Both the position numbers and the translations under genes were made by a program. Below, piece by piece: positions 12,353-64,000 of a stretch of DNA of 64,000 bases. This DNA comes from Erysipelothrix amsterdamensis (lineage in GTDB: Bacteria > Bacillota_I > Bacilli_A > Erysipelotrichales > Erysipelotrichaceae), in contig NZ_OW659496.1 of the NCBI RefSeq assembly GCF_940143175.1, forward strand, positions 930,001-994,000, given 5' to 3'. The first letter of the stretch is position 1, and each line of letters begins with the position of its first letter. Below the pieces are notes generated by a model that saw nothing but the letters and a program-made list of their open reading frames with translations, searched no databases and had not been told where the DNA came from.

Positions 12353-13012
12353 ATGAAGATTCCACTTTATCAGCAAATTAAAGATAAAATCATAACAATG
12401 ATTGAAATCATGGAACCAAACGCCTCAATTCCCAGTGAACGTGATTTTACCGATCACTTTCAGGCAAGTCGTATGACCGTACGAAAAGCAATTAATGAAT
12501 TGGTTGATGAAGGATACCTTTATCGCGATGCCAACCGTGGTACGTTTGTATCGGACAAGCGATTAATCAAGAAGAATTCATTACTAACACCAGAGTTTGA
12601 TAAACATACAATTTTATATTTTGATGTAAAGGCTTCTTGTGGTGAAGACGTGAGTTCAAAATTAAATATTTCTCAGGATACTTCAGTGGTACGGTTTATT
12701 CGCATCTTATCCAAAAATAATATTAATATTGCTCTTGAAGAAGTTTATATCGCTCGGAATCAATTGTCTGATGATGCGTTCAACGATTTACCAAAACTAG
12801 AGAATTTTAATGCATTCTTCAATCGTGGTAGTGCGTCCTTTACGGTGATTCCAATGCTTGTTCCAATTAAATATGCGAATCTTTTAGGAATCAAGCTCGA
12901 AAGCCCGATTTTATCCATTGAATCTATTATTTATAAAAATGATGGAAGCCCACTTGTTTACATTAAGAGTTTTAATCATCCTATTTATCGATCAATTGAA
13001 ATTACAGATTAA
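12353..13012 (+). CDS. GntR-family regulator with UTRA domain
   Basis: This 219-residue repressor has an N-terminal winged helix (about residues 1-68; IPSERDFTDHFQASRMTVRKA is the recognition region) and a C-terminal UTRA ligand domain (about 80-218). It belongs to the HutC/DasR/NagR group, whose ligands are typically phosphorylated sugars. It ends the PTS-MupG operon but has its own promoter with an operator-like site. The likely ligand is MurNAc-6-phosphate or a relative produced by the pathway. This follows from context, not from visible residues. Confidence 0.9.
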   Translation: MKIPLYQQIKDKIITMIEIMEPNASIPSERDFTDHFQASRMTVRKAINELVDEGYLYRDANRGTFVSDKRLIKKNSLLTPEFDKHTILYFDVKASCGEDVSSKLNISQDTSVVRFIRILSKNNINIALEEVYIARNQLSDDAFNDLPKLENFNAFFNRGSASFTVIPMLVPIKYANLLGIKLESPILSIESIIYKNDGSPLVYIKSFNHPIYRSIEITD

Positions 13013-13046
13013 AAAAAACTTAGACACAATAGTCTAAGTTTTTTTC
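13012..13046. terminator. Bidirectional terminator between GntR and ABC-F genes
   Basis: The 10-bp stem AAACTTAGAC/GTCTAAGTTT is flanked by A-runs and T-runs on both sides, so it works on both strands. It overlaps the ends of both convergent genes. Confidence 0.9.
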
Positions 13047-16677: not shown

Positions 16678-19080
16678 ATGAATACTATACATATCAAAAA
16701 ATCTGAATCCTGCTCGCTCGCAGGAATTGCTATGAATAATGGAATTGTTGTTGTTAGAAGAAATTTACCGTACCGGACATTTTTAAAACAAATTGACGGC
16801 AAGGAATTTGAGGCGAATAAAGCGTTTGAAGTGATCTATGTCGTAAAGGGCATGATTGGACTTCGCGTAAATGGTTCGTATTTAAATCTCAATGAAGGTG
16901 ATGTTTATATTCTTGAACCGAATCGAGCTCATTGTTTTTATGCAAACAGTCGGGATAATTTACTTCTCGTAGCACAGATTGATTCATCGTTTGCAGAGGA
17001 ACATTTTAACTTATCGCCAAAGGTAAGTATCGATAGTACACTTAAAGACCAGCGAAATAAAGTACGTCTTATTGAATCCATTCGTCATCTGTATGGCCAA
17101 AAAGATGCAGGTGAAGTAACATTTGAAGAAAGTTATCATGCTGTTAAAGAAGTTGTGGATTCTATAAAACTCTTTGTTATGAATCAAAAACGATCCATTA
17201 TAAGTACTGATTCCATTGAATCCATCGTAATAGATATTACAGAAAAGTATGCAGATGCGAAAAATGAGAAAATAACGTTAGAGGGACTTGCGGACGAGTA
17301 TAATGTGAGTGGCGCATATCTATCGAGAATGTTTAAAAAGATCACCGGCGTTAATGTAAGTGAATACTTTAGGGTGAATCGCATTAATTATGCTGTTGAC
17401 TGTTTAATCAACACAGACTTAACAATGACAGAGATTTCAAATCATTGTGGCTTTTTAGATATTAAAGCATTAGGAAGAGATTTCCAAAAAGTTTTTGGTT
17501 TATCACCAACACAATTTAGAAAACAGTATACAACGGAACATATCGCATCCTTAGAATATCCTTATGCTGCAGATTCTAAAGTACGTTATTTCTTGGAAGT
17601 GGGTACAAAAGGCCCAAGTCAACTCGAAAATGAGCCTATTAAAGCACTTGAAGCTCGAATCAATCCAAACTTTATTAAAGGACACTTCCGGAATGCGTGG
17701 GGTGTTGTGGTTGATTTGGATTGTGTGGTCGATCGTGATTTCTTAAGTATTGCGGAATTACGGGAAACACTGGGGCAATTTAAATTTAAAACAGTTAAAA
17801 TTAAACTTGCGTTTTTAGACGGTGTCTTTAAATTGCAAACAAAATCTGGTGCCTTGCGTGATTTCTCGTCATTTGAAATTTATAATATCTTCACAGTATT
17901 TTCTGAATTTGATATTATTCCAGTATTGAGACTTGATTTTGTAAGCTTTAATGCGTTATTACAAGAAGGTGCGAGTTTAAATGAAATCAATCATGCTGTA
18001 GTTGGGATGCAGAAAGCATTGGATGAGGCATCATTAATCATTAGTAATTCTAAACTTCGTGAGTGGGGTTATGAATTATACTTTCCAACCATTAACGATG
18101 CGGTCAGTGATCAATCAAGAAGACCAATGTTTAAAGAATGCATTCATTCTTTCGTAAAAGTCCTTCAAGAAAAGTTTGATCAGGAAAAAGTGCGTTGGGG
18201 CTTGTACCTTGGTTCTTTTGAAAACGATACACGAGATATTCATCAAGAGTATCTTGAGATGATTGCGGAAATGAATATCGAACCAGCATTCTATACATGT
18301 GACCTCAATTTCACAAACAATGATTTTGGAAGTGATCAATTACTACCGAAAATTCTTAATGATATTCGTGAGATTAATCATGCAATCCGTATTAGTTTAC
18401 CTGCGGATCGCTTAGGAAGACATATTGTGGCAGCTTCATTCAACTATACGGTTGAAGATGATTATCGTTGGAATGATGCATTTGATAATCCATTCTATAA
18501 TCTACTCTTTCTTCCAATTCTGCTTCAGCTAAGTTTAGGTGACTTCTACTTTTCATCTTGGAATATATTAGGTAAGTCGCAGCATCAACTGATGCCGATG
18601 TCTTATTCAAGTTTCTATAACTATCTTGGTGTTGAACGGATGCCATTTTATGTCCTTAAATTTCTTCAAGAATTGTTTAGTACTGTCGTTGATTATGGTG
18701 AGGGTTATATCGTGACCCGGAATCATCATGATTATGCAATTATTGTATATTCCAACTATTACGAATCGTATCGTCGTGTAGACTCTAAAGATCGTAACAG
18801 TGGTTCAGAGTATGAGCGTAAGGTTAATTTTAAAATTGAAAGCATTAGTGGCCGTTACAAAATGACGGAACGCTATTTAGATTATAAAAATGCATATTTC
18901 TGTCAGAACTGGATTGAAGATACCGGAATGTCAAATCTGACTCCAGAAGAGCGTGATTACATCCGCCAGCAATCAAATCCACGAATGAAGGTTAAATATT
19001 TGGAAATCGATGGTGAATTAGATTACGCATTCAATCAGAGTTTGTTGAATATTAGTCTCATTAAGTTAAATAAGATATAA
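16678..19080 (+). CDS. AraC-family regulator fused to a GH39-like domain
   Basis: This 800-residue protein has three parts: an N-terminal cupin sensor (about residues 20-100), an AraC helix-turn-helix pair (about 185-284; EGLADEYNVSGAYLSRMFKK and SNHCGFLDIKALGRDFQKVF), and a long C-terminal region (about 300-800) resembling a family 39 glycosyl hydrolase barrel. Where GH39 xylosidases have the acid/base WNE motif, this protein appears to read WGYELYFPT (463-471), so the usual asparagine-glutamate pair is missing. The barrel is therefore probably a sugar-binding sensor, not an enzyme. The gene is monocistronic, flanked by terminators. The target operon is not adjacent, and the inducer is unknown. 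Confidence 0.8.
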   Translation: MNTIHIKKSESCSLAGIAMNNGIVVVRRNLPYRTFLKQIDGKEFEANKAFEVIYVVKGMIGLRVNGSYLNLNEGDVYILEPNRAHCFYANSRDNLLLVAQIDSSFAEEHFNLSPKVSIDSTLKDQRNKVRLIESIRHLYGQKDAGEVTFEESYHAVKEVVDSIKLFVMNQKRSIISTDSIESIVIDITEKYADAKNEKITLEGLADEYNVSGAYLSRMFKKITGVNVSEYFRVNRINYAVDCLINTDLTMTEISNHCGFLDIKALGRDFQKVFGLSPTQFRKQYTTEHIASLEYPYAADSKVRYFLEVGTKGPSQLENEPIKALEARINPNFIKGHFRNAWGVVVDLDCVVDRDFLSIAELRETLGQFKFKTVKIKLAFLDGVFKLQTKSGALRDFSSFEIYNIFTVFSEFDIIPVLRLDFVSFNALLQEGASLNEINHAVVGMQKALDEASLIISNSKLREWGYELYFPTINDAVSDQSRRPMFKECIHSFVKVLQEKFDQEKVRWGLYLGSFENDTRDIHQEYLEMIAEMNIEPAFYTCDLNFTNNDFGSDQLLPKILNDIREINHAIRISLPADRLGRHIVAASFNYTVEDDYRWNDAFDNPFYNLLFLPILLQLSLGDFYFSSWNILGKSQHQLMPMSYSSFYNYLGVERMPFYVLKFLQELFSTVVDYGEGYIVTRNHHDYAIIVYSNYYESYRRVDSKDRNSGSEYERKVNFKIESISGRYKMTERYLDYKNAYFCQNWIEDTGMSNLTPEERDYIRQQSNPRMKVKYLEIDGELDYAFNQSLLNISLIKLNKI

Positions 19081-19110
19081 AAAAGATACCAAATTACGGT
19101 ATCTTTTTTA
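19081..19110. terminator. Rho-independent terminator after the AraC-GH39 gene
   Basis: The 10-bp stem AAAAGATACC/GGTATCTTTT has a 7-base loop and T-runs. It separates the regulator from the Tad pilus operon. Confidence 0.85.
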
Positions 19111-19280
19111 TATCTATCACATCTAATACAATTAATTACAATTGGTATGACAAATAATGCGAAGTGCACAACAAGGATGGGTAAACGGTTAAAATTTTGT
19201 GAAATTCACGTCAAAATATTGGTAGATACAGAGGTCATATCATCATATACTATCTATGTCGGTGATGAGGAGATTCTATA

Positions 19281-29530: not shown

Positions 29531-29560
29531 AAAAAGGTATTCAAGTTGAATACCTTTTTT
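29531..29560. terminator. Bidirectional terminator between Tad operon and glnN
   Basis: The stem AAGGTATTCA/TGAATACCTT with a 3-base loop is flanked by A- and T-runs. It serves both convergent transcripts. Confidence 0.9.
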
Positions 29561-39490: not shown

Positions 39491-39497
39491 ATAAAAA

Positions 39498-39539
39498 AAC
39501 GATGTAGTCTTCCGTCATTTAACTACATCGTTTTTTTTT
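39498..39539. terminator. Bidirectional terminator of cinA and the noncoding element
   Basis: The 11-bp stem AACGATGTAGT/ACTACATCGTT has a 13-base loop and is flanked by A- and T-runs. It directly follows the cinA stop on the minus strand and the structured element on the plus strand. Confidence 0.9.
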
Positions 39540-59351: not shown

Positions 59352-60476
59352 ATGAAAAAGCTAAAAGTTATGACTGTCGTGGGAACACGTCCTGAAATTA
59401 TTCGTTTATCTGCAGTGATTAATCGTTTAGAATCAAGTGATGCAATTGAACATGTGCTTGTGCATACAGGACAAAACTACGATTATGAATTAAATGAAGT
59501 GTTTTTTAATGACTTTAAACTTAGAAAACCTGATTACTTTTTAGAAACCGCTACGGGTAAACCCGTTGGTACGATTGGTAATATCCTTATCAATATTGAA
59601 CCTGTTTTAGAGGAAGTAAATCCTGATGCATTCTTAGTGCTTGGAGATACCAACAGTTGTCTTTGTGCAATCGCTGCAAAGCGTAAGCATATTCCAATTT
59701 TCCATATGGAAGCTGGAAATCGTTGCTTTGACCAACGTGTTCCTGAAGAAACAAATCGTAAGATTGTTGATCATATTTCTGATATCAACTTAACTTACAG
59801 TGATATTGCTCGCGAGTACTTATTACGAGAAGGTCTTTCCGCTGATCGCGTTATCAAAACTGGTAGCCCGATGTATGAAGTCATTCAATCGCGTCAGGAT
59901 GATATTGCCGCAAGTACAATTCTTGAATCACTTAAACTCACAAAAGGTGAATATTTTGTCGTGTCAGCACACCGAGATGAAAATATTAACTCAGAAAGAA
60001 ATTTCTTGAATCTAGTTGATAGTTTAAATGCAATTGCCGAAAAATACCAAATGCCCATTATAGTAAGTACACATCCACGCACAAAAAACATGATCGATGC
60101 GAAAGGTGTTTCTTTTAACCCGCTTGTGAAAATTATGAAACCAATGGGATTTAATGATTACGTAAAACTTCAAGTGGATTCTAAAGCTACTCTAAGTGAT
60201 AGTGGAACGATTAGTGAAGAATCATCAATTCTTAAGTTCAAAGCACTTAATCTACGTGAAGCTCATGAACGTCCAGAAGCAATGGAAGAAGCATCTGTAA
60301 TGATGGTAGGGCTCGAAAAAGAACGTATTTTACAAGGGCTAGAAGTATTGGAAGAACAAGAACCGGAAACATTACGCTATGTTTCTGATTACAGCATGCC
60401 GAATGTATCTGAAAAAGTATTACGTATTATTATTTCTTATGTTGACTACATAAATCGCAATGTTTGGAGTAAATAA
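59352..60476 (+). CDS. capG: UDP-sugar 2-epimerase, CapG/FnlC (UDP-L-FucNAc synthesis)
   Basis: This 374-residue GT-B-fold 2-epimerase of the WecB superfamily converts the CapF product into UDP-L-FucNAc, ending the pathway. Motifs include VGTRPEIIRLSAVI, VHTGQNYDYELNEVFF, VLGDTNSCLCAIAAKR, HMEAGNRCFD and SDSGTISEESSI. Given the CapE and CapF genes before it, the FnlC/CapG role is more likely than the general UDP-GlcNAc 2-epimerase. It starts with no gap after capF, and its stop overlaps the next start (TAATG). Confidence 0.9.
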   Translation: MKKLKVMTVVGTRPEIIRLSAVINRLESSDAIEHVLVHTGQNYDYELNEVFFNDFKLRKPDYFLETATGKPVGTIGNILINIEPVLEEVNPDAFLVLGDTNSCLCAIAAKRKHIPIFHMEAGNRCFDQRVPEETNRKIVDHISDINLTYSDIAREYLLREGLSADRVIKTGSPMYEVIQSRQDDIAASTILESLKLTKGEYFVVSAHRDENINSERNFLNLVDSLNAIAEKYQMPIIVSTHPRTKNMIDAKGVSFNPLVKIMKPMGFNDYVKLQVDSKATLSDSGTISEESSILKFKALNLREAHERPEAMEEASVMMVGLEKERILQGLEVLEEQEPETLRYVSDYSMPNVSEKVLRIIISYVDYINRNVWSK

Positions 60477-61648
60477 TGAAGGTTCTATTCGTTAATTCGG
60501 TTTGTGACTACGGAAGTACCGGTAAAATTGTACGAGATCTCGCAAACGGACTAAAAAAAGAGGGCCACGAAGTTTTAATATGTTACGGTCGTCATCAGGC
60601 AAAAGAAGATACGGATACGTTCTATATTGGTGATAAGCTTACGACATACAGTCATGTTTTCATGACGCGTGTCTTTAACCGACATGGACTGCATTCAAAT
60701 CGTGCAACTCAAAAACTAATTGAAAAAATTGAAACCTTTAATCCGGATGTGATTCATTTGCATAATTTACACGGATACTACTTAAATGTTGAAATGCTCT
60801 TTGAGGCATTAAAAACATTTAAGGGAAAAATTTATTGGACCTTTCATGACTGTTGGCCAATCAGTGGAAGCAGTGCTTATTTTGATTTCAACGGATGTAA
60901 AACGTGGAATGAAGGCTGTGTTGAATGTAATTCAACACGAGATTATCCTGAAGCATTAGTATTTAAACGCCAAAAGAAAAATTTCCTTTGGAAGAAAAAA
61001 GCATTTAGTGGTCTCGATAATTTAACCTTAGTGACGCCATCTTATTGGCTTAAAGAATTACTTTCAAAAAGTTTTTTAGCTCAGTATCCGTGCGAAGTAA
61101 TCCATAATGGTATTAATACGGATCTCTTTAAACCTACATATGATTCAGAATTAACAAAAAAATATGAGAATAAACTCGTTTTACTTGGCGTTGCAAGCGT
61201 TTGGGAGCAGCGCAAAGGCTTAAACGACTTCATTAAGCTAAGTACCATGATTTCTGATAATTACAAAATTGTACTGATTGGTTTGACTGAAGAGCAAAAG
61301 AATTCATTACCCGCTGCAATTGATGGTGTATTACGAACGGACAGTGCAGAGCAACTTGCAGCGTATTACACACTTTCGCACCGTTTTATCAATCCAACCT
61401 ATGAGGATAACTATCCTACAACAAATATCGAAGCGCTTTGCTGTCATACACCTGTGATTGCATATGATACAGGTGGTAATAAAGAAGTTTCGATTAAGCC
61501 GTTTATGACAATTATTCCCCAAGGCGATTTGGAAGCAATTGTTCATGAACTCAATTCATATAAAGAAATATCTTTTGATCACTTTGATAGTTTGACTCAC
61601 GATTCCCATACATTTGTGTCAAACACTCTTAAGTTGTATCAGCGGTAA
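60476..61648 (+). CDS. Glycosyltransferase family 4
   Basis: This 390-residue GT-B glycosyltransferase has an N-terminal GT4-type start (KVLFVNSVCDYGSTGKIVRDLA), the early FHDCWPISGSSAYFDFNGCKTW cysteine-rich stretch and the C-terminal nucleotide-sugar domain with NPTYEDNYPTTNIEALCCHTPVIAYDTGGNKE. The NPxxEDxYPTTNIEA run resembles WcaC/WcaL-like capsule transferases. It is coupled to capG by overlapping stop and start codons, so it probably builds the same repeat unit. The sugar is unknown. A hairpin just after its stop would stop most transcription here. Confidence 0.8.
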   Translation: MKVLFVNSVCDYGSTGKIVRDLANGLKKEGHEVLICYGRHQAKEDTDTFYIGDKLTTYSHVFMTRVFNRHGLHSNRATQKLIEKIETFNPDVIHLHNLHGYYLNVEMLFEALKTFKGKIYWTFHDCWPISGSSAYFDFNGCKTWNEGCVECNSTRDYPEALVFKRQKKNFLWKKKAFSGLDNLTLVTPSYWLKELLSKSFLAQYPCEVIHNGINTDLFKPTYDSELTKKYENKLVLLGVASVWEQRKGLNDFIKLSTMISDNYKIVLIGLTEEQKNSLPAAIDGVLRTDSAEQLAAYYTLSHRFINPTYEDNYPTTNIEALCCHTPVIAYDTGGNKEVSIKPFMTIIPQGDLEAIVHELNSYKEISFDHFDSLTHDSHTFVSNTLKLYQR

Positions 61649-61705
61649 TTGAAAACCCTCCGTTCAAATGTTACAATATGTAAGCAAATTTGAACGGAGG
61701 TTTTT
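61649..61705 (+). promoter_or_regulatory. Promoter inside a terminator-like hairpin that hides the next ribosome site
   Basis: A 13-bp stem, CCTCCGTTCAAAT (61657-61669) with ATTTGAACGGAGG (61688-61700), ends in TTTTT and then the ATG at 61706. The 3' arm contains GGAGG, the ribosome site of the LicC-LicA gene. A promoter, TTGAAA (61649-61654), 17 bases, TACAAT (61672-61677), overlaps it; transcription would start near 61684, within the loop. RNA from this promoter lacks the 5' arm and has a free ribosome site. RNA read through from the capsule operon keeps both arms and would terminate or hide the site. Confidence 0.7.
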
Positions 61706-63451
61706 ATGTTTTCGAAATTTTATATTCTCAGAACGTTACTTGAGCATGAAATTTCATCACAGCGTGAATTAAGCAAACACACAAATTTTTCCTTAGGGAA
61801 AGTTAATTCACTCTTGAATGATTGCATCAATCAAGGATATGTAAATAATTTCAAAATTACAAAAGAAGGACTTAGGTTTCTTAAAGAATACGAGGTCGAT
61901 AACGCAATAATTATGGCTGCAGGGTTTGGATCAAGGTTTGTACCTTATACCTATGAAACACCCAAAGGGCTTATGGAAGTTCACGGTGAGCGAATGGTCG
62001 AACGACTCATCAAACAACTTCAAGAAGTAGGCATTAAAGAAATATATGTCGTAGTCGGTTATCTCAAAGAGAAATTTGAATATCTCGTAACGAAATACGG
62101 GGTCAAATTGATTCATAATCCCGATTACAATCGATACAACAACATCTCTACGATTTATCATGCACAAGATGTTATGAAAAACACGTTAATTATGCCATCA
62201 GATATCTATATTATGGAAAATATGTTCCATAAATATGAATTTAAATCATGGTACGCTACAACATTTTTTGAAGGTGAAACGGATGAATGGACTGCAAAAA
62301 CAGCACCAAGCGGCCTTATTACTGAGATGGAAATTGGCGGCAAGGATGTACTTGGCCTTTATGGACCCACATTTTTTGACGCCGAAACATCTCAAAAAAT
62401 AATTAAAGCAGTTAATCAGGATATTAAGATTGCTGGAAAAGAGCAGTATTACTGGGAGAACTGCTGGCTCGATCGAATCAATCAAATTCATATTTATTCA
62501 AACGAGGTCGAACCAGAGTCAATTTTCGAGTTCGAATCAATTGAAGAGTTACGTGTTTTTGATACGACATATATTACCGAGACAAAAAATGAAATGATTT
62601 CAATTATTTGTAATGTCTTCGGAGTTACATCAAATGAGATAACCGGAATTGAGTCCATGAAAAAAGGGATGACAAATGATTCCTTTATCTTCAGAGTCAA
62701 TAACAAGTCTTATGTGTTTCGGGCTCCTGGAAAAGGAACTGAACAACTGATAAACCGACGCGAAGAGGCGGAAGTGTACCAGGCAATTAATCACTTAAAG
62801 TTATCGGATAAGCTTTATTATATCAACCCAGAAAACGGTTATAAAATTTCACGTTATTATGATAATTGTGAGTCGATTACCCAAGATGATATACCACAAG
62901 CTTTTAGTATCTTACGAATGTTGCACTCAAGCGATATCTCAGTGAGCCATTCCTTTAATTTAGAAGAGCGCATTGCATATTATATGACTTTATGTAAAGA
63001 TTCTAATGCGATTTTATTCGATGATATCAATGAGGTATCAAGACTCGTTGATGAAGAAATATCCTATCTTAATACACTTGACCGTCCGAAAGTTTTATGT
63101 CATATTGATCCAGTGGAATCGAATTTCGTGAAATTATATGATGGTTCTTTACGACTCTTAGATTGGGAATATGCAGCCATGGGCGATCCAATATTAGATA
63201 TCGCAATGCACGCAATTTACTCAGGACATCAAGATGATCAAATCTTAAAATTACTTGAAATCTATCTTGAACGAAAACCTACAAAACAGGAGTCTAAAAT
63301 CTTATTTATGTATGTTAGTTTATCAGGATATCTCTGGGCTTTATGGGCTCAATTTAAACAAGCCAGCGGAGAATCGTTTGGAAGTTATTCATTGGATCAA
63401 TACCACTATGCACATAAGTATGCACGCTTAGCGTTGTCTATGGAGGACTAA
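61706..63451 (+). CDS. Fused wHTH / LicC-type cytidylyltransferase / LicA-type choline kinase
   Basis: This 581-residue fusion activates choline for surface decoration. Residues 1-65 form a winged helix-turn-helix (REISSQRELSKHTNFSLGKVNS-like region). Residues 66-290 are a LicC-type nucleotidyltransferase (MAAGFGSR at 70-77, TPKGL at 85-89), making CDP-choline. Residues about 310-581 are a LicA-type choline kinase with the Brenner-like motif HIDPVESN at 466-473 and the metal-binding DWE at 486-488. In Haemophilus and pneumococcus these two activities are separate proteins. The start is preceded by GGAGG inside a hairpin. LicD follows one base later. Confidence 0.85.
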   Translation: MFSKFYILRTLLEHEISSQRELSKHTNFSLGKVNSLLNDCINQGYVNNFKITKEGLRFLKEYEVDNAIIMAAGFGSRFVPYTYETPKGLMEVHGERMVERLIKQLQEVGIKEIYVVVGYLKEKFEYLVTKYGVKLIHNPDYNRYNNISTIYHAQDVMKNTLIMPSDIYIMENMFHKYEFKSWYATTFFEGETDEWTAKTAPSGLITEMEIGGKDVLGLYGPTFFDAETSQKIIKAVNQDIKIAGKEQYYWENCWLDRINQIHIYSNEVEPESIFEFESIEELRVFDTTYITETKNEMISIICNVFGVTSNEITGIESMKKGMTNDSFIFRVNNKSYVFRAPGKGTEQLINRREEAEVYQAINHLKLSDKLYYINPENGYKISRYYDNCESITQDDIPQAFSILRMLHSSDISVSHSFNLEERIAYYMTLCKDSNAILFDDINEVSRLVDEEISYLNTLDRPKVLCHIDPVESNFVKLYDGSLRLLDWEYAAMGDPILDIAMHAIYSGHQDDQILKLLEIYLERKPTKQESKILFMYVSLSGYLWALWAQFKQASGESFGSYSLDQYHYAHKYARLALSMED

Positions 63452-64000
63452 ATGAACAAATTACAGCAAGAAGAGTTGAATATTCTCGTCGAATTCGATC
63501 GAATTTGTCGAAAACATGATATTATCTATTCACTCTCATCAGGAACATTATTAGGGTCAATTCGTCATCAAGGATTTATTCCTTGGGATGATGATATTGA
63601 TGTCAATATGTCTCGCAGTGAATTTAATCGATTCGAATCGATTGTTTCTGAGGAATTAGATAAAGATTATTTCTACCAATCTTTTGATACTGAAAAAGAT
63701 CACTATCACGCTTTTAGTAAGATTCGAAGTAATAAGATTGAGCTTGTTGAAAAATCAACTGAGTATCTTAAGATAAACCACGGTGTTTGGATTGATATAT
63801 TTCCTTATGATAACATTCCAGATGATATAGCATTTCGTGATGAGCAAAAGAAAAAAGTAGGTTTCTACAATAAACTTATTTCTCTATTTGTATATACATT
63901 TGTTACAGATGAAGATACCGGCAAAAAACGTATCATCAAAAATATTTTTTATCATCTAAATCGTATCTTTTACCGCGTGAATTTCTTGCTTCCAAGTTTG
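63452..64000 (+). CDS. licD: LicD-family phosphocholine transferase, 3'-truncated
   Basis: This is the N-terminal 183 residues of a LicD-family enzyme, cut by the window edge. LicD transfers phosphocholine from CDP-choline to a surface glycan. The family signature SGTLLGSIRHQGFIPWDDDI starts at residue 30, and the later WIDIFPYDNIPDD and KNKIELVEKS-like strands are present. The ATG directly follows the stop of the LicC-LicA fusion, with TGGAGG upstream. This is the usual order for phosphocholine loci. The acceptor is probably the capsular polymer made by the upstream genes. Confidence 0.9.
   Translation, partial: MNKLQQEELNILVEFDRICRKHDIIYSLSSGTLLGSIRHQGFIPWDDDIDVNMSRSEFNRFESIVSEELDKDYFYQSFDTEKDHYHAFSKIRSNKIELVEKSTEYLKINHGVWIDIFPYDNIPDDIAFRDEQKKKVGFYNKLISLFVYTFVTDEDTGKKRIIKNIFYHLNRIFYRVNFLLPSL

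Follow-up and report, generated by a model that had tools for sequence, protein, structure and literature searches.

The 13-bp dyad over the licC-licA promoter is most probably, with a probability of roughly three in four, an operator for the winged-helix domain of the LicC-LicA enzyme itself, and four Erysipelothrix genomes appear to have extended this site into a potential RNA hairpin. This reading comes from comparison of one window (the whole stretch of 64,000 nucleotides analysed here) with related genomes. Two inverted half-sites over the core promoter of licC-licA (licCA) would form the DNA operator, and its most likely binder would be the N-terminal winged helix of the enzyme. LicC-LicA would repress its own promoter according to the state of its substrates or products, letting go of the operator, or binding it, depending on choline, phosphocholine or CDP-choline; the contact between domain and site, the sign of regulation and the ligand are steps that we infer. 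LicC-LicA would be a DNA-binding trigger enzyme for phosphocholine activation, and in Erysipelothrix the same operator would mark other uptake or activation genes of choline, ethanolamine and aminoethylphosphonate type. In the four close species the operator appears to have grown (AAAACCCTCC ... GGAGGTTTTT) to the point where the right arm takes in the ribosome site; transcripts entering from the upstream operon would then probably end there or be translated poorly, and locally started RNA would be free.

Bacteria with phosphocholine on their surface polymers mimic the host, and to our knowledge little is known, beyond a few species, about how they match its synthesis to the supply of choline. 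Paired with a winged-helix activating enzyme, a conserved operator would make a feedback circuit that is concrete and testable, spans two phyla and predicts which further genes belong to it; the case also illustrates a route by which an operator in DNA might evolve into a regulatory hairpin in RNA. In the open-access literature we found no description of the LicC winged helix or of the operator. DNA-binding enzymes are already known as a kind; what appears to be new is the example of LicC-LicA with its operator, together with the overlap of ribosome site and hairpin.

Dyad, promoter and ribosome site of licC-licA

The features of the locus, in window coordinates, are the following.

60476..61648, plus strand: glycosyltransferase gene, ending directly 5' of the -35 box; possible source of readthrough
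61649..61654, plus strand: -35 box TTGAAA, directly 3' of the glycosyltransferase stop codon TAA (61646-61648)
61653..61705, plus strand: whole potential hairpin with A tract and T tract, from folding
61657..61669, plus strand: 5' arm of the 13-bp perfect dyad, CCTCCGTTCAAAT, including CCTCC, the complement of the ribosome site
61661..61666, plus strand: left operator half-site CGTTCA (consensus TGTTCA)
61672..61677, plus strand: -10 box TACAAT, 17-nt spacer from the -35 box, between both half-sites
61688..61700, plus strand: 3' arm of the dyad, ATTTGAACGGAGG, with GGAGG at its end
61691..61696, plus strand: right operator half-site TGAACG (consensus TGAACA), 24 nt from the left half-site
61696..61700, plus strand: Shine-Dalgarno GGAGG of licCA, with one base in common with the right half-site
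61706..63451, plus strand: licC-licA fusion, 581 aa, with a winged helix (about residues 1-62), a CTP:phosphocholine cytidylyltransferase (59-286) and a choline kinase (310-571)
61706..61891, plus strand: winged-helix domain, from Pfam HTH_24, AlphaFold model and PDB neighbours; proposed operator binder
63452..64000, plus strand: licD, next gene of the unit, extending beyond the window

The elements named in the original prediction, a 13-bp perfect stem with GGAGG in its 3' arm followed by TTTTT and an ATG, are all present, as is the promoter TTGAAA-17-TACAAT that overlaps the stem and has its predicted start in the loop. TTTTT occupies 61701-61705 and the licCA ATG follows at 61706. The loop of the dyad is 18 nt long (61670-61687) and would include the transcription start, which the promoter places about 7 nt past the -10 box, near 61684. 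The promoter matches the consensus at 10 of 12 positions and has an extended -10 element, with TG one base 5' of TACAAT (TGT); comparison of relatives showed TTGAAA or TTGATA at -35 in G061, G060 and E. tonsillarum too. The window's own half-sites, CGTTCA-N24-TGAACG, agree with the operator consensus at 10/12 positions. Beyond the one-base interruption at C61656 the stem resumes with the A tract against the T tract, and in the closest relative, G061, the base equivalent to C61656 is also paired.

The hairpin region folds with a z of -3.8, none of 200 shuffles being equally stable. Perfect inverted repeats of at least 12 bp with a loop of 3-30 nt number five in the 64-kb window, and Markov sequences of the same composition gave none at 12 bp (three trials) and one at 13 bp (a separate draw). 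The four other repeats, of 13-18 bp (19073-19115, 39493-39537, 13012-13045 and 29531-29559), are probably terminators. An Rfam search returned nothing above the gathering score, its only matches being sub-threshold ones to hairpin-shaped microRNA families, which were rejected; the plasmid collection that was searched gave no match. The inner loop palindrome TTACA-ATA-TGTAA was also dropped as a signal, as it is not conserved in E. tonsillarum.

A long-spaced inverted repeat before licC-licA genes

Homologues were gathered at the level of genus, family and phylum and from a species-wide collection, and the DNA before each start was compared. Promoters counted as non-redundant when their likeness over 100 nt was below 70%. 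Of the 30 non-redundant promoters that precede licC-licA fusions whose winged helix is intact, 27 carry the pattern TGTTCA-N24/25-TGAACA (spacing 24-26, at least 10/12 half-site matches; shuffle mean 1.2, maximum 4). Stricter matching of the same 30 promoters left 24 at 11/12 (shuffles 0.11) and 17 at 12/12 (shuffles 0). Spacings of 24 and 25 stand out, other spacings being at or near background, and the half-sites lie about three helical turns apart, centre to centre. By taxonomy, these loci come from Erysipelotrichia, other Bacillota families, Coriobacteriia and Actinomyces.

The position of the operator relative to the start of translation varies. It lies tens of bases upstream of the ribosome site in some loci (L127, L120, L005), abuts it in others (the window, L117, L191, L207), and in a third set the right half-site lies over the ATG (L004, L006, L188, L190, L047). 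This variability relative to Shine-Dalgarno and start codon argues for a DNA site and not an RNA device. Most operators overlap a promoter-like -10 box or flank it closely, and the box often sits between the half-sites; at several licCA loci, mostly of Coriobacteriia, no -10 with at least 5/6 matches was found. The original prediction had taken the RNA hairpin as the primary entity, but the core of the dyad is kept across two phyla, mostly without overlapping a ribosome site, and from these comparisons the conserved entity is the DNA inverted repeat, with the CCTCC of the 5' arm a clade-specific extension of its left half-site.

The repeat tends to accompany an intact winged helix. It was present at 28/31 fused genes with an intact winged helix versus 3/8 with a degenerate or missing one (Fisher p = 0.004, with loci treated as independent of kinship and the winged-helix class of L190 set by hand); among the three exceptions, one is a second copy beside an intact copy. 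The three fused intact-winged-helix genes lacking the operator are L124, L184 and L187, two of which look operon-internal. No operator was seen near 12 non-redundant genes with an intact winged helix and no LicA part. Genes of this last kind (L008-L014, L193-L202) in many cases look operon-internal; L012, L193, L196 and L198 share a conserved upstream stretch, TTTACAATTTTAC...GATGTAAGATAATG, perhaps a different operator. Additionally, L035, L037, L044 and L120 have extra half-sites: compact palindromes (CTGTTCGCGAACAG or TGTTCGTGAACA, for example) stand beside or inside the long-spaced pair, which suggests more than one binding mode.

The winged helix of LicC-LicA and the genes that carry the candidate operator

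The original prediction made no mention of a winged-helix domain in LicC-LicA. Pfam HTH_24 matches residues 7-46 above its curated cutoff, and Pfam MarR_2 matches 18 of 21 relatives. The presumed recognition helix spans residues 30-42 with a conserved SxGxxN, and Q19, R20, S29, G31 and N34 are invariant in the winged helix among relatives. The AlphaFold pLDDT of the domain is 91.9, and the nearest solved folds are those of the MarR family and of CggR-DNA complexes, with a TM-score of up to 0.84 by query length; Foldseek gave weak E-values, as a query of only 67 residues would lead one to expect, and a probability of about 1. LicC-LicA shares the winged-helix fold of the MarR-family and CggR domains and, unlike MarR, carries a single domain of about 62 residues attached to an enzyme and lacks MarR's dimerisation helices. 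Concerning the catalytic parts, both match Streptococcus pneumoniae proteins by sequence and fold, the LicC part 1JYK (E 2e-41, starting at residue 59) and the LicA part 4R77 (E 2.5e-32), and by these matches they are homologous to characterised metabolic enzymes. The solved pneumococcal LicC has no winged helix, and pneumococcal LicC and LicA are separate proteins. Since licCA encodes a MarR-like winged helix, the operator is best read as a site for the enzyme's own domain. The proposal that licCA would be controlled with no protein regulator becomes unlikely on two grounds, this domain and the coincidence of the dyad core with a conserved DNA repeat.

The evidence linking winged helix and operator is one of association, and a separate transcription factor sharing this operator across loci, with another role for the enzyme's winged helix, is possible but unlikely. 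Such a factor would explain why L038 and L039 keep the operator despite a divergent recognition helix, and why the second licCA of the window genome has an operator but a degenerate winged helix. Against it, the operator goes together, in genomes far apart, with licC-licA genes whose winged helix is intact, the domain of the first copy can serve the second, and in an unsystematic look no common regulator gene was noticed beside the loci.

Self-repression by the enzyme would place LicC-LicA beside the trigger enzymes NadR, BirA and PutA of E. coli, which carry a DNA-binding domain (PMC8249747). Like them, LicC-LicA is a metabolic enzyme with a DNA-binding domain, and candidate operator sites stand both at the promoter of its own gene and at genes of its pathway; unlike them, it joins a LicC cytidylyltransferase to a LicA choline kinase and acts on another substrate, its DNA binding is predicted, and its half-sites stand about three helical turns apart. 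The marks of a trigger enzyme found in LicC-LicA are catalytic homology, a DNA-binding domain in the same polypeptide and a conserved operator at its own and pathway promoters.

Exact six-base sites number 24 in 13 genomes of the genus versus 5 for the reversed control. Among those inspected, the extragenic ones precede licCA, solitary choline kinase or licA genes (L174, L228) and a choline kinase-EutH pair (L176). The operator also precedes fusions of an NTP-transferase (cytidylyltransferase) and an aminotransferase that resemble PntC-AEPT (L175, L176, L177, L229, L230), and ABC transporter genes (exact in L178 and L231, 11/12 in L237); other exact sites that were inspected fall within unrelated genes (L232-L236). 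Apart from the ABC transporter, the promoter-proximal genes handle choline or ethanolamine or, to judge from the families that they resemble, aminoethylphosphonate. The sites at PntC-AEPT-like promoters hint at a common control of phosphocholine and aminoethylphosphonate activation.

In the window genome the sole exact site precedes the second licCA-eutH unit, 3.6 kb downstream, the order after the first fusion being licD, an EamA (LicB-type) transporter, the second licC-licA fusion and eutH. The second fusion (L141:5262-7086, genome 995262-997086) lies just beyond the window; its winged helix is degenerate, and a classic terminator as well as the operator, exact at 12/12, stand upstream of it. 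Control of this fusion may come from the first copy, and ethanolamine may be its substrate. A five-base pattern gave 18 matches in the same genome versus 34 in the reversed control, most of those checked being intragenic; since the pattern is unenriched, weak single sites are credible only through their context. It was rejected as a stand-alone regulon finder, the six-base pattern performing better.

A possible hairpin layer in four Erysipelothrix genomes

In the predicted folds, readthrough RNA of the window buries the ribosome site (mean unpaired probability of GGAGG 0.001, 13.7 kcal/mol to open), whereas RNA starting 22 nt before the ATG does not (0.435 and 2.1 kcal/mol). Three related Erysipelothrix behave alike, with a predicted opening cost of 10.5-18.7 kcal/mol in readthrough RNA versus 1.5-1.9 in locally started RNA. 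At the other operator-bearing genes tested the cost was 1.9-4.7 kcal/mol, with the exception of L005 (10.2, by a different pairing). The original proposal that locally started RNA leaves the ribosome site free while readthrough RNA hides it thus agrees with modelled folding, and the precedent that it cited from T4 is real: in phage T4 gene e a hairpin hides the ribosome site in a longer RNA, and RNA from an internal promoter lacks the 5' arm (PMC3014915). The likeness to gene e is a ribosome site predicted to be paired in long RNA and free in local RNA; unlike in gene e, the arms at licCA extend a conserved DNA operator, in four Erysipelothrix genomes only, and the effect on RNA is predicted.

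A CCTC 5' of the left half-site, complementary to GGAGG, occurs only in the window genome, G061, G060 and E. tonsillarum. Aligned by eye, the outer pair is C.U in the window, C-G in G061 and A-U in G060 and E. tonsillarum, and the pair next to GTTC changes from C-G to U-G or U-A with the arms still paired; a sample of four closely related genomes is too small to establish selection for RNA structure. The pairing of the arms is absent from more distant carriers of the DNA site, including L117, L191 and L207, whose right half-site abuts the Shine-Dalgarno.

An RNA device acting alone, with the ribosome site hidden in readthrough RNA, free in local RNA and no protein regulator, is quite improbable as the whole explanation. 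Strong predicted sequestration in four genomes, arms that by eye stay paired despite changes at two positions, and the action of T4 gene e (PMC3014915) speak for it, but the dyad core is kept over two phyla without pairing to a ribosome site, the single covarying position within a half-site is equally explained by operator symmetry, and licCA carries a DNA-binding domain. Least probable of all is a plain intrinsic terminator of the upstream operon overlapped by a promoter by chance: the hairpin stands immediately after the stop codon with A and T tracts on its flanks (TTTTTATGTTTT), and a separate classic terminator precedes the promoter at L115, L125, L127 and L128 but in none of the four genomes. 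Against this reading, relatives that lack the T tract and the shape of a terminator still have the dyad core, and the 18-nt loop exceeds the usual terminator range. That loop keeps the hairpin off the list of a terminator scan with loops of at most 8; with inner pairs, the predicted fold resembles an intrinsic terminator. A terminator role can coexist with an operator role. The statement that every relative outside this clade has a separate upstream terminator was rejected, being true at some loci only.

With the dyad as operator for the enzyme's winged helix, the RNA hairpin may be a second layer in one clade, a readthrough block or a terminator, as folding suggests; its effect in cells is something we infer. 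A fuller version is more tentative, with the odds against it: through the 44-bp dyad as operator, LicC-LicA would sense its own metabolites and repress both itself and a small regulon of choline and ethanolamine genes. In the E. rhusiopathiae group the dyad would also be an RNA hairpin silencing readthrough from the capsule operon, and phosphocholine decoration would follow the enzyme's promoter only. Finally, a 13-bp perfect inverted repeat, AATATTCACGAAA...TTTCGTGAATATT, lies around -29 to +5 at L047 with a half-site spacing of 24 nt; here the ribosome site is inside the loop and the GTG start is overlapped.
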